Origin: Methylococcus sp. EFPC2 | GTDB lineage: Bacteria > Pseudomonadota > Gammaproteobacteria > Methylococcales > Methylococcaceae | DNA: 64,000 nt | Reading direction: 5' to 3' | Assembly (NCBI RefSeq): GCF_016925495.1 | Contig: NZ_CP070491.1 | Span: 2,232,001-2,296,000, forward strand | Shown here: positions 45,575 through 49,509 of the stretch, piece by piece | Numbering within the stretch: position 1 is the stretch's first letter | Layout: every line of letters starts with the position of its first letter | Notes under the pieces: model-generated | Databases searched by the model: none | What the model saw: only the letters and a program-made list of their open reading frames with translations | Told to the model about the DNA's origin: nothing | Made by a program: the position numbers and the translations under genes

Positions 45575-46639
45575 TCAATGCGATGCGTAGGCCTTGGTCC
45601 AAAGATGCCGAACCAGCAAAATGAAAGGCATTTTGAGCCAGTGGGAGCGCAGGAACAAGAACCCGCGCGCCAGGTTGCTCAGCCCAGAAACTTCCGGAGC
45701 AAAGGCCGCCAGGAACACTGCGTTCATGAACCGCGCCCATGCCACCGGCGGCCCAAAGCGGTCGCAGGCCCGCAAGACCTCCTCAGGTATCGGCGTATTC
45801 AAGGCCGCATGCACCCCGTGCAAGGCATAATACAGTATGCGACCAAGGTTGAGCTCCTCTGCGCGCCTGAGCAAGCGGTCGTAATAACCGGGGGTTTCCG
45901 CTGCAAACTGACGCAGTAATAAGTCCAAGTCGGACAAATCGCGCAAGGCGCGTTCGCATTCGCCGCTTGTAAATAAATGGGTCGCGCTATGCAGGACCAG
46001 ATCCTCCGCCCCCAGGATACGAAAGCGCGAATCCGGCAGCGGACGACTCTCCTCAAATAATCGTCCGGCCACCAATTGGATACGCCCGGTCACCGGCAGC
46101 AGCGTATGATGCACATCGACCTCGACCCACCTGTCCGGATGCCGGAGGGGCGGTATCTCATGCATCCAATCCCGGTAATAGCGTTCATCATATTCGCTCA
46201 AAGCGCCGGATACCCAACCTGCCGCCTTGAGTGCATTTTCGGCTTCGTCGATGTGGGTACGCGGGACCAGGATGTCAACATCGGCGAAATCCCTCCCGCG
46301 GCCGACCTGGAGTCCGCCCTGCAAGTAGGCAGCGCCCTTGAGCAAGATCACGGGAAACGGGCACTCACCAAGCACTCTGTGCAGACGGTCTAGCTCCCAA
46401 GCCGCGACTCTTTGTTGGGCGCCGACCTGGACCTCCGCGCCCGTCATGTGCAGCCTCACCTGATCGGGCAAATCCTCCCAGATACCCACGTCATGAGCCA
46501 GTGCCCCCAGCCTGGCGAGCAGGCGTGTGGAACGGGCCAAAGGCAACAAGACATCCCATTCCCTCAGGGTCAGCGATTCCATGGAGACTGGAGCGTATAG
46601 GATCTGCCGGAGCAAACTGTAAGGCGTCGCCAGGGTCAC
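45575..46639 (-). CDS. nucleotidyltransferase-like protein (NTP_transf_5 type)
   Basis: A 354-residue protein whose centre (about 100-160) reads ILLKGAAYLQGGLQVGRGRDFADVDILVP, the GGxxL/R...DxD motif of the uncharacterised nucleotidyltransferase family PF14907. Relatives accompany peptide- or lasso-like biosynthesis clusters and HprK-related kinases. A long helical C-terminal part (about 210-340) follows. It starts at GTG (46639), overlapping the HprK-like stop by GTGA, so it belongs to the cluster 48523-45575. Its substrate is unknown; by analogy it may nucleotidylate or modify a carrier or exported peptide. Confidence 0.8.
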   Translation of the reverse strand: MTLATPYSLLRQILYAPVSMESLTLREWDVLLPLARSTRLLARLGALAHDVGIWEDLPDQVRLHMTGAEVQVGAQQRVAAWELDRLHRVLGECPFPVILLKGAAYLQGGLQVGRGRDFADVDILVPRTHIDEAENALKAAGWVSGALSEYDERYYRDWMHEIPPLRHPDRWVEVDVHHTLLPVTGRIQLVAGRLFEESRPLPDSRFRILGAEDLVLHSATHLFTSGECERALRDLSDLDLLLRQFAAETPGYYDRLLRRAEELNLGRILYYALHGVHAALNTPIPEEVLRACDRFGPPVAWARFMNAVFLAAFAPEVSGLSNLARGFLFLRSHWLKMPFILLVRHLWTKAYASH

Positions 46640-47547
46640 TCTCCCCGCTCCAGGTCGGCCAATGCCGACAACGCATCGTCGAGGCACCCGAACTCCAGCG
46701 AATAACACGCGCACCGCCGAATCAGCCCGGCGACGGTGCGAAATCCAGCTTCGCCTAACAACTCGTAATTGAATGAGTTATTGGCAAGCCGGAGGAACGA
46801 CCGTGCTTTAGGATAGGGCTGCAGAGTCAATGATGCGCCCTCCCGGAAACGAGGGAAGACTATCCATGCCGGCATGGCTTTCTCGCGCATCCGAGCGACC
46901 GAATTCGCGTCTGCCCTCAAGTGAGCGACCGTGCCTTTGCGGGTCTTAGGGAAGGAGGGACCGAGCGGAGCAAGCGGAAACCGCTCCCGTATCACATCGA
47001 TCGAGCGATTTTTCAATGCCACCGGTCGGGGCTGGGGAACGAGAGCGAGATCATCCCTATCGACCATCCCGAACTCGTCCGACAGCAAACGCCAGCCGCT
47101 TAGCGTCAAAGCGGCACAGAGCGTGCTTTTTCCAGACCCCGGATGAGCGGGCAACAATAATACGCGGCCGTTCTTTTCAAGAACCGCGGAATGCAGCAGC
47201 AGGAAGCGATGGGCGAGATGAGCGATAGACCAATTCAAGCCCCATTCGAACATGGGTGCCGCGTGATCGGCGGGAAAGGGATCGAATAGGGCCTGTCCGT
47301 CGCGAGCAAAAACGACTTGGGGCTTTATCCAACCGCGTAACCCCTGGGGCCGGGTAATACCCAGATGAAAGTCCGCGAAGACGCCATCTGGCTCGACGGG
47401 GTAACGTCCGTAGAAAAAAAACAGCGCAGCCGCAAAGGAGCTCGAATTACTTTTCAGGCGGGCAGAAAAAGCGCCTATGTGTAAAACCAGCCCACCTTTA
47501 CTCAGCAAGAAGGCCAGTTCACGTTCGGAGAACCGATCAAGCGTCAT
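46636..47547 (-). CDS. HprK-related kinase
   Basis: A 303-residue protein resembling the HPr kinase/phosphorylase catalytic fold. Residues about 135-150 hold the Walker A-like LLPAHPGSGKSTLCAALTLSG, with RLLSDEFGMVDRDDLALVP following as a Walker B-like region. True HprK needs an HPr serine-46 partner and carries an extra N-terminal domain; this protein belongs to the HprK-related kinase A group seen with a PqqD-like protein and a nucleotidyltransferase. It overlaps the PqqD-like frame by 11 bases. The substrate is unknown, possibly a serine or threonine on the exported protein upstream. Confidence 0.82.
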   Translation of the reverse strand: MTLDRFSERELAFLLSKGGLVLHIGAFSARLKSNSSSFAAALFFFYGRYPVEPDGVFADFHLGITRPQGLRGWIKPQVVFARDGQALFDPFPADHAAPMFEWGLNWSIAHLAHRFLLLHSAVLEKNGRVLLLPAHPGSGKSTLCAALTLSGWRLLSDEFGMVDRDDLALVPQPRPVALKNRSIDVIRERFPLAPLGPSFPKTRKGTVAHLRADANSVARMREKAMPAWIVFPRFREGASLTLQPYPKARSFLRLANNSFNYELLGEAGFRTVAGLIRRCACYSLEFGCLDDALSALADLERGE

Positions 47548-47827
47548 GCGCTACCGGTTCGACCAGCGCCAGAGACTCGAACTCATGCATTAAACGGATT
47601 ATCGTTTGACTATCGACCGTCTCCCCGCCACAGACCTCGTTCAACAGGCCGCTTAAGGCATCGACCGACAAACTTCGAGCTTGCAAACTACGCAGCGCTT
47701 CCGTTGCCAAGGCATTGAGGAGGTGGGTCTGGGAAGTTCGAGTGTCGAAAAGAACCCATTCATCGCCCCATGATTCCCACAGAAAAACTGCGGCCGACGC
47801 ATCCGGGGCTTTCCAGAGAGTATCCAG
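47537..47827 (-). CDS. PqqD-like peptide chaperone without a standard start
   Basis: A 96-residue frame not bounded by ATG, GTG or TTG. Its sequence FLWESWGDEWVLFDTRTSQT, then HLLNALATEALRSL and a terminal LMHEFESLALVEP, is a clear PqqD/RRE-type winged fold, of the kind that binds leader peptides in RiPP pathways. The HPr-rel-A type member normally sits directly before an HprK-related kinase, as here. The first candidate start is CTG at 47827, ten bases after the TAG of the upstream gene and in the same frame. Either CTG initiation, or read-through of that single amber codon to give a fusion, would explain it. Confidence 0.75.
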   Translation of the reverse strand: MDTLWKAPDASAAVFLWESWGDEWVLFDTRTSQTHLLNALATEALRSLQARSLSVDALSGLLNEVCGGETVDSQTIIRLMHEFESLALVEPVAHDA

Positions 47828-47836
47828 ATAGCGTGC

Positions 47837-48523
47837 CTAGCTGATAGAGCACCAACAGGATTCGGAAATCGCCGAAGCACCTCCCGTCGTAAATACTACG
47901 TACCCCACCTGTTTAGTAGTGCCGTCTTCCGTCGTTTGGGGCGTACCCGCAGAGTCCGTCACCACGAGACCGTCGGCGCTCGCAGGTGCCGGGGTCTCGG
48001 GCAGCAAATACTTTAGTCCACTGCTGCCATCGACATAATAGCCCGAGACCCTCTCCGAACCCGTGGGATAGCGGACTTCCACAGGGGAAGTCGAAGTCTG
48101 TGTGAATTTTTCCTGTACGCCTACGGAGGTTACGAATCCCCACCAGACCAAGGAATCCGGCGGCGTCTGACTCTGGTAGACCTCAATATCTACGGCATCC
48201 GTATCTATCTCCCAGCCTCCACCTCCACCCGAGCTACGTGCTCGCAGCTTCTTCAATTTTGTCCACTTGATGGGGACACGCAGATAGGAGTCGCCCCCAA
48301 CCTTAACACTCGGTGGCGTTTGGAGGGCTTGCGTCTGGCTAGCCTGAACGCAACCGTCGGCGCTACTCGCAGCCAAAGCAGCACCGCTGCGCAGCGTTAC
48401 TATCATCGGCAACACCGCCGCCGAGCCTTTCAGTAGGGTACGTCGGCGTGTATCGGCTTTTTCTAGGCCCACTACCTGCTCGCCTTCCTGACAGTCTGGG
48501 TTCTGATCTGCGGCGCTGTTCAT
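47837..48523 (-). CDS. Tat-type exported protein with Cys-rich C-terminus
   Basis: A 228-residue protein with a twin-arginine-like signal (RRRTLLKGSAAVLPMIVTLRSGAALA, about 26-51 with the preceding Arg). The mature part contains a beta-rich central segment with KWTKLKKLRARSSGGGGGW and a Ser/Thr- and Gly-rich tail that ends SCWCSIS. The final Cys-x-Cys pair and its neighbours resemble a modification site. Its gene leads directly into the PqqD-like, HprK-like and nucleotidyltransferase-like genes, so it is the best candidate substrate of that set. I do not recognise a named family. Confidence 0.75.
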   Translation of the reverse strand: MNSAADQNPDCQEGEQVVGLEKADTRRRTLLKGSAAVLPMIVTLRSGAALAASSADGCVQASQTQALQTPPSVKVGGDSYLRVPIKWTKLKKLRARSSGGGGGWEIDTDAVDIEVYQSQTPPDSLVWWGFVTSVGVQEKFTQTSTSPVEVRYPTGSERVSGYYVDGSSGLKYLLPETPAPASADGLVVTDSAGTPQTTEDGTTKQVGYVVFTTGGASAISESCWCSIS

Positions 48524-48753: not shown

Positions 48754-49509
48754 TTATTGGGCGCCCTTGCCTAACAGACCGAGCGCAAATTTGATCGGAA
48801 TCGCGTAACTGATCCCGCTGGGCTTTGCCAGCAGGTTCTCCTTGGTTTCCTGTACGAAGACCTTGTTTATGATACCCACCACGACGCCTGTGCGGGGGTC
48901 GTATAAGGGGCTTCCGCTATTGCCCGGATAAGCGGTCGCGTCTAGCTGGAATACGTCGTACGGCGCATTCAGCCGGCTCAGCATTTTCCCGTTGAGTTGA
49001 CGCATCTGTTGAACAGGAATGGCCACCGGGGTAATGGCAGAGATGATGCCGCGATGGGTGACTGGATGCAGCCCCAGTACCACACCGATAGGGTAACCCG
49101 TAAACGCATAGGTCTCCCCCTCCCTGACCTTATCGGAATCCCCCAACGCCAAGGGCGGCAAGCGAGGACCACCGATCTTCAGCAAAGCGATATCGTGGAC
49201 TTCGTCGCTGGCGACATGCGTCGCCAGCCTTATCTTTTCCTCCCCGCCCTCGCGCACAAACACGGCGATGCTTTCGAATCTTGCCGCGTCGAGCGTCTTG
49301 GGCAGCACATGGGCATTGGTGAGGACATGTTGCCCGTCCCCCACCGCGAAACCCGTACCGGCGAAGTTAACGGGCGGACTGCGTGTTTTCTGAAATGTAC
49401 CCACGCCCACAACGCTTGGCTTGCTACGCGCCACGGTATCCGGCAATTCGTCGGCGCTGCCACCCAGCGCCCAAACCAGACCCAGCACACCCAGCCACGA
49501 GCGTCGCAT
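48754..49509 (-). CDS. trypsin-like serine protease (S1 fold)
   Basis: A 251-residue secreted serine protease with a signal peptide (1-19). The triad is visible: His in LTNAHVLP (about 65-72), Asp in HDIALLKIG and Ser in AYPGNSGSPLYD (about 195-206). The sequence lacks a PDZ domain, so it is a simpler trypsin-like peptidase than DegP. It sits upstream of the exported-protein cluster and downstream of ppiD on the same strand; a 230-bp AT-rich gap separates it from the cluster, so cotranscription is doubtful. It may process envelope proteins, possibly including the neighbouring one. Confidence 0.85.
   Translation of the reverse strand: MRRSWLGVLGLVWALGGSADELPDTVARSKPSVVGVGTFQKTRSPPVNFAGTGFAVGDGQHVLTNAHVLPKTLDAARFESIAVFVREGGEEKIRLATHVASDEVHDIALLKIGGPRLPPLALGDSDKVREGETYAFTGYPIGVVLGLHPVTHRGIISAITPVAIPVQQMRQLNGKMLSRLNAPYDVFQLDATAYPGNSGSPLYDPRTGVVVGIINKVFVQETKENLLAKPSGISYAIPIKFALGLLGKGAQ

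Follow-up and report, generated by a model that had tools for sequence, protein, structure and literature searches.

A Tat-type protein with a conserved leader as the likely substrate or partner of the HPr-rel-A kinase, PqqD-type protein and nucleotidyltransferase in Methylococcus sp. EFPC2

A four-gene operon of Methylococcus sp. EFPC2 encodes a Tat-type exported protein together with a PqqD-type protein, an HprK-related kinase and a nucleotidyltransferase, and the co-occurrence of the exported protein with the kinase indicates that it is likely the substrate or partner of the system, as a rule one per genome. We consider it probable that the system carries out a dedicated modification, in which the Tat protein is bound by the PqqD-type protein, phosphorylated and decorated by the nucleotidyltransferase in the cytoplasm, and then exported by Tat. 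The operon lies in the window, i.e. the whole stretch of 64,000 nucleotides that was analyzed (contig NZ_CP070491.1, positions 2,232,001 to 2,296,000), in which an ORF survey placed all four genes on the minus strand inside 45575-48523. The order on this strand is the Tat-type protein (228 aa; 47837..48523), the PqqD-type protein, the kinase and the nucleotidyltransferase, with gene ends that overlap or touch: the Tat gene stops with TAG at 47837-47839 and the PqqD frame comes next, the ATG of the kinase at 47547 overlaps the PqqD stop, and the GTG of the nucleotidyltransferase at 46639 overlaps the kinase stop. Between 42.0 and 52.0 kb lie genes for DUF4202, cation efflux, a TrkA channel, Ppnp, RsfS, the system itself, a trypsin-like protease, a PpiD/SurA-like protein and HU; none of them is a radical SAM or cyclase gene. 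An earlier note made from the sequence alone had called the four linked minus-strand genes and the absence of radical SAM and cyclase genes from the cluster; the coordinates and the family matches above cut-off of kinase, PqqD-type protein and nucleotidyltransferase confirm the former, and the survey of the neighborhood bears out the latter.

The kinase (303 aa; 46636..47547, minus strand) matched the model HprK_rel_A (TIGR04352) with 386.4 bits at a cut-off of 200; its match to ScmC was weak (26 bits, cut-off 125). His119, the P-loop Lys140, Asp157 and Glu158 are invariant in the kinase family and align to the catalytic residues of HPr kinases, which are its best solved relatives by sequence, with marginal E-values. 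The predicted model (pLDDT 94.7) shows a two-lobed PEPCK-like fold; its match to PEPCK covers 283 of its 303 residues at Z 16.4 and rmsd 4.7, and HPr kinases are weaker structural matches (Foldseek). Although HPr kinase/phosphorylase and PEPCK share the P-loop and the H-K-D-(D/E) residues with the window's kinase, its identity to PEPCK is ~12% and its proposed substrate is a Tat-exported protein. In a comparison with the His-Lys-Asp-Asp motif of lasso-type C-terminal serine kinases (PMC9266682), the invariant residues are H119, K140 and D157, with Glu158 at the fourth position. The nucleotidyltransferase (354 aa, GTG start; 45575..46639, minus strand) matched NTP_transf_5 (PF14907) with 172 bits at a cut-off of 31.2, and its LKG...GR...D120-x-D122...D175 motifs recur in 111-112 of the 112 relatives aligned. 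Given that the catalytic residues are kept in both proteins, kinase and nucleotidyltransferase both look active. A PF14907 nucleotidyltransferase lies beside kinase and PqqD in 111 of 113 loci; at the other two (L041 and L112), kinase, PqqD and substrate are present and the nucleotidyltransferase was not detected in the fetched stretch, so that these are possible variants without it.

The PqqD-type protein (about 96 aa; 47537..47827, minus strand), a putative leader-binding protein, matched PqqD_rel_X (TIGR04353) over profile positions 1-73 of 74 with 37.8 bits at a cut-off of 35, the translation being taken upstream of TTG. Sequence searches found no solved structural relatives of this protein or of the nucleotidyltransferase. 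The PqqD frame carries no ATG, GTG or TTG ahead of the conserved block and its first TTG is at 47710. As a start at this TTG would truncate the PqqD domain, translation most likely begins at the CTG at 47827 or by stop-restart from the Tat gene. An annotation that starts PqqD at TTG 47710 loses half of the domain. The lack of a standard start codon, together with a PqqD frame that continues the Tat gene in frame past a single TAG (47537-47839, minus strand), would also suit readthrough of this codon, which in this genome would fuse PqqD to the Tat protein. We rejected this reading as highly improbable, since the frame relation of the two genes is mixed among relatives, most of which have their own ATG, GTG or TTG start for PqqD at the equivalent place.

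Searches of Pfam and NCBIfam gave the Tat-type protein no match above cut-off, and the same holds for relatives from other classes; as a query against plasmids the protein gave no match, and its AlphaFold2 model was uninformative (pLDDT 41, six rows). The leader RRRTLLKGSAAVLPMIVTLRSGAALA (residues 26-51; 48371..48448, minus strand) harbors the twin arginines, a P-[VIM]-x-x-T-L-x-S block and an Ala-x-Ala site. The arginines stand at positions 26 to 28 (Arg26-Arg27-Arg28), and the leader scored 11.3 bits with Pfam TAT_signal, below the cut-off of 22.7; TatC is present in the genome (236 bits), and the Tat pathway moves folded proteins. A leader profile built from 107 relatives found the Tat protein as its sole strong match in the window's genome (2.4e-12; next best E 0.78), and the same SRRxFxKxG..PVxxTLxSxx leader is common to all three substrate classes. 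Since the ordinary Tat signals of the same genomes went unmatched, the leader holds more information than targeting to Tat requires. Conservation merely as an ordinary Tat signal was rejected, as the profile singles out one protein in each genome and passes over the other Tat signals.

To characterize the partnership of the Tat gene and the kinase, we collected kinase loci from related and named genomes, which amounted to 113 after removal of duplicates. A protein matching the leader profile lies within the locus at 105 of them, some of the rest being cut by contig ends. Among 101 relatives, the kinase scored above cut-off in 38 and a strong leader match was found in 39, exactly one in each; the match was present in 37 of the 38 kinase genomes vs 2 of the 63 others (Fisher p 5e-24). 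The three mismatches between the two sets are all at contig ends: in the genome with the kinase only (G049) about 80 bases of contig are left on the upstream side of the kinase, and in the two with the leader only (G061 and G064) the Tat gene reaches the contig end. In two genomes (G002 and G013) the kinase and the Tat gene are not linked; the Tat gene is nevertheless present, and its product finishes with SCWASL and a few more residues. When 398 genomes from across the phylum were sampled and compared by hand, 38 of 39 leader matches below 5e-5 fell in kinase genomes; 23 kinase genomes of this sample were without a match below 5e-5, with only 17 candidates scored per genome, and direct inspection of 29 newly fetched kinase loci revealed a leader protein beside the kinase in 25. 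The co-occurrence of the Tat gene with the other three genes, on which the earlier note had staked its proposal, thus holds in 37 shared genomes and also where the genes are unlinked; being far beyond chance, it indicates that the Tat protein is the likely substrate or partner of the system. At three betaproteobacterial-type loci (L091, L115 and L121) there are two Tat substrates, or another kinase/nucleotidyltransferase set follows in tandem.

Inspection of leader, tail and serine features assigned the substrates, most of which are 140-300 aa long, to three classes. Class I (35 proteins, the window's included) has a C-terminal Cys-Trp-type tail: the motif [ST]-C-[WYLA]-x-S-[FLIV] is present in 35/35 proteins from several orders, 5-20 residues from the C-terminus, with Trp in 28 and Phe in 21. 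In the window's protein the tail is SCWCSIS (residues 222-228; 47840..47860, minus strand). The C-x-C of this tail had been considered as a conserved mark, which we rejected: its second Cys sits at a position that varies among class I tails, and C-x-x-S is kept instead. One natural class I substrate (L178, minus strand 904-1153) is only 82 aa long, with a mature part of ~20 residues, TQCDTATASCLDSFNGL, indicating that the leader and about 20 residues suffice and offering a convenient minimal model. Class II (86 proteins) carries C-x-x-S-G-x-x-S-G-N-x-S just after the signal; 98% of its members have the Cys, 99% the first Ser and 100% the second (RR in 97-98%). The 9 proteins of class III terminate in AI(L/V)SS.SA.S, a tail rich in Ser and with no Cys. 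Given that class III is without the Cys-Trp tail and class II has its serine pair at the N-terminal side, a single universal acceptor site is unsupported.

The kinases segregate with these classes. On a tree of 80 kinases, made with FastTree on a subsample and with one class nested in another, the three classes require 2 changes, which is the minimum, whereas shuffled assignments required 29.9 on average and none of 200 was as low. Sedimenticola and family f8 each appear in both main kinase clades, and in class III the kinases of Accumulibacter cluster with those from relatives of the window's family. As hosts are thus mixed in the tree, the kinase tracks the substrate more closely than it tracks the host.

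The exact coincidence of the conserved block with the Tat signal region raises the question of whether the PqqD-type protein serves as a proofreading chaperone for Tat, with kinase and nucleotidyltransferase regulating this protein or export and the Tat protein being escorted with its tail unmodified. Dedicated signal-binding chaperones are established for Tat redox enzymes. Such escort would leave the conserved SCWxS tail unexplained, as well as a kinase phylogeny that follows substrate class, and Pfam and NCBIfam searches recognized no cofactor-binding domain in the substrate; we regard it as improbable. The proposed modification of the Tat protein has also to be weighed against a RiPP pathway that releases a short, secreted, bioactive C-terminal peptide, for which the large mature domain would be the carrier and a neighboring protease the maturase. 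The presence of a PqqD-type protein and the 82-aa precursor of L178 agree with this, as does a secreted trypsin-like (HtrA-related) serine protease that is often a neighbor and in the window is encoded at 48754..49509 on the minus strand (PF13365, 95 bits). This protease, however, is near the system in 33 of the 113 loci only, there is one substrate per genome, and substrates are mostly far longer than a short peptide (140-300 aa, as noted), those of class II with conserved internal features, all of which makes a peptide product an improbable outcome too. Where present, the protease lies upstream or downstream and on either strand, and its His67, Asp106 and Ser198 are kept in 33/33; its recurrence with an intact triad suggests that it may be part of the system as a possible processing or quality-control partner.

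Returning to the modification that we favor, the Tat-type protein would be made with its long N-terminal leader, which the PqqD-type protein would bind so as to hand the protein to the HprK/PEPCK-type kinase for phosphorylation of a hydroxyl, in class I most likely that of the serine of the C-terminal SCWxS tail. The nucleotidyltransferase would next link a group derived from a nucleotide or a sugar to this phosphate, as proposed for PsmN in pseudomycoidin. Because ATP or NTP is needed, both steps would take place in the cytoplasm and precede export; the folded, modified protein would leave by Tat, its leader would be removed, and the neighboring trypsin-like protease may trim or police the exported product. 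If so, the use of Tat is explained by a modification that needs cytoplasmic ATP or NTP before export, and the conserved leader and SCWxS tail make the pathway directly testable with all steps in one operon. A more specific reading, in which whole Tat-exported proteins bear a phosphodiester-linked nucleotide or sugar on the SCWxS serine, possibly for anchoring to exopolysaccharide, and form an undescribed leader-guided class, we put forward only tentatively, as less likely to be right than wrong.

A chemical precedent comes from lasso peptides. PadeK phosphorylates the C-terminal serine of a lasso precursor, and in pseudomycoidin PsmK phosphorylates and PsmN is needed for the addition of one or two hexoses to the phosphorylated serine (PMC9266682). 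Lasso clusters repeatedly combine an HPr kinase, PqqD and a nucleotidyltransferase, and in them it is the PqqD-like B1 that binds the leader (PMC7533575). The lasso tailoring trio (B1, PadeK/ThcoK/PsmK and PsmN) and the window's operon comprise the same three protein types, and the window's substrate, like the lasso precursors on whose C-terminal serine the kinase acts, has a conserved serine near its C-terminus. Unlike the short lasso precursors, the window's substrate is a 228-aa protein of Tat type (one relative being 82 aa). The transglutaminase-like leader peptidase B2 (PF13471) had no match in the whole genome, and we rejected a lasso pathway proper on this ground; no asparagine synthetase-like lasso cyclase is encoded between 42 and 52 kb. 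PqqD radical SAM RiPP pathways, including SynChlorMet with its kinase-like ScmC, have a PqqD-type protein in common with the operon but differ in having a radical SAM protein, for which no gene lies near the operon.

TIGR04352 and TIGR04353 are NCBIfam models of an 'HPr-rel-A system', and we found no papers that name this system or its models. The window's operon corresponds to it, with kinase and PqqD-type protein passing the curated cut-offs and a PF14907 nucleotidyltransferase adjacent. The phospho- or nucleotidyl-type pathway put forward in the earlier note stands in part: it fits the intact active sites of kinase and nucleotidyltransferase, whereas the gene set is not new, as NCBIfam names it and lasso clusters share its enzyme types. 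For HPr-rel-A we found a name without function or substrate, to which the Tat partner, leader and tail are added here. As far as we found, the new content is thus the substrate, the leader and the tail of a system already named and undescribed, and a trio named without function gains a likely substrate with a leader signature as well as a candidate acceptor site. If the proposed modification is correct, lasso-type kinase and nucleotidyltransferase chemistry is extended to whole exported proteins.

The genomes that carry the system may point to the cell surface. XrtA was found in 32 of 40 system genomes vs 9 of 61 others (p 6e-11, a statistic that ignores shared ancestry of the genomes), and XrtA polysaccharide export, chain-length, glycosyltransferase and PrsT genes adjoin the system in many loci; we found no literature linking the HPr-rel-A system with exosortases. 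Like the window's protein, PEP-CTERM/exosortase substrates are exported, bear a short conserved C-terminal signature and occur in similar genomes. The SCWxS tail, however, has no transmembrane stretch or basic cluster and is a different signal. The modification might tether the exported protein to an XrtA/PEP-CTERM-type polysaccharide, which would complement, and not contradict, the modification before export that we favor. Besides the missing correction for ancestry, eight system genomes have no XrtA above cut-off and in the window's genome no exosortase is beside the system, so that, in spite of the association with XrtA and its polysaccharide genes, we hold tethering to be rather unlikely. 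The window's genome has three exosortase genes (G000:C1 952505, 34026 and 2192103), one of them an XrtA above cut-off. A role of the system at the cell surface is a reasonable guess, and if true would link the system to exopolysaccharide-forming bacteria.
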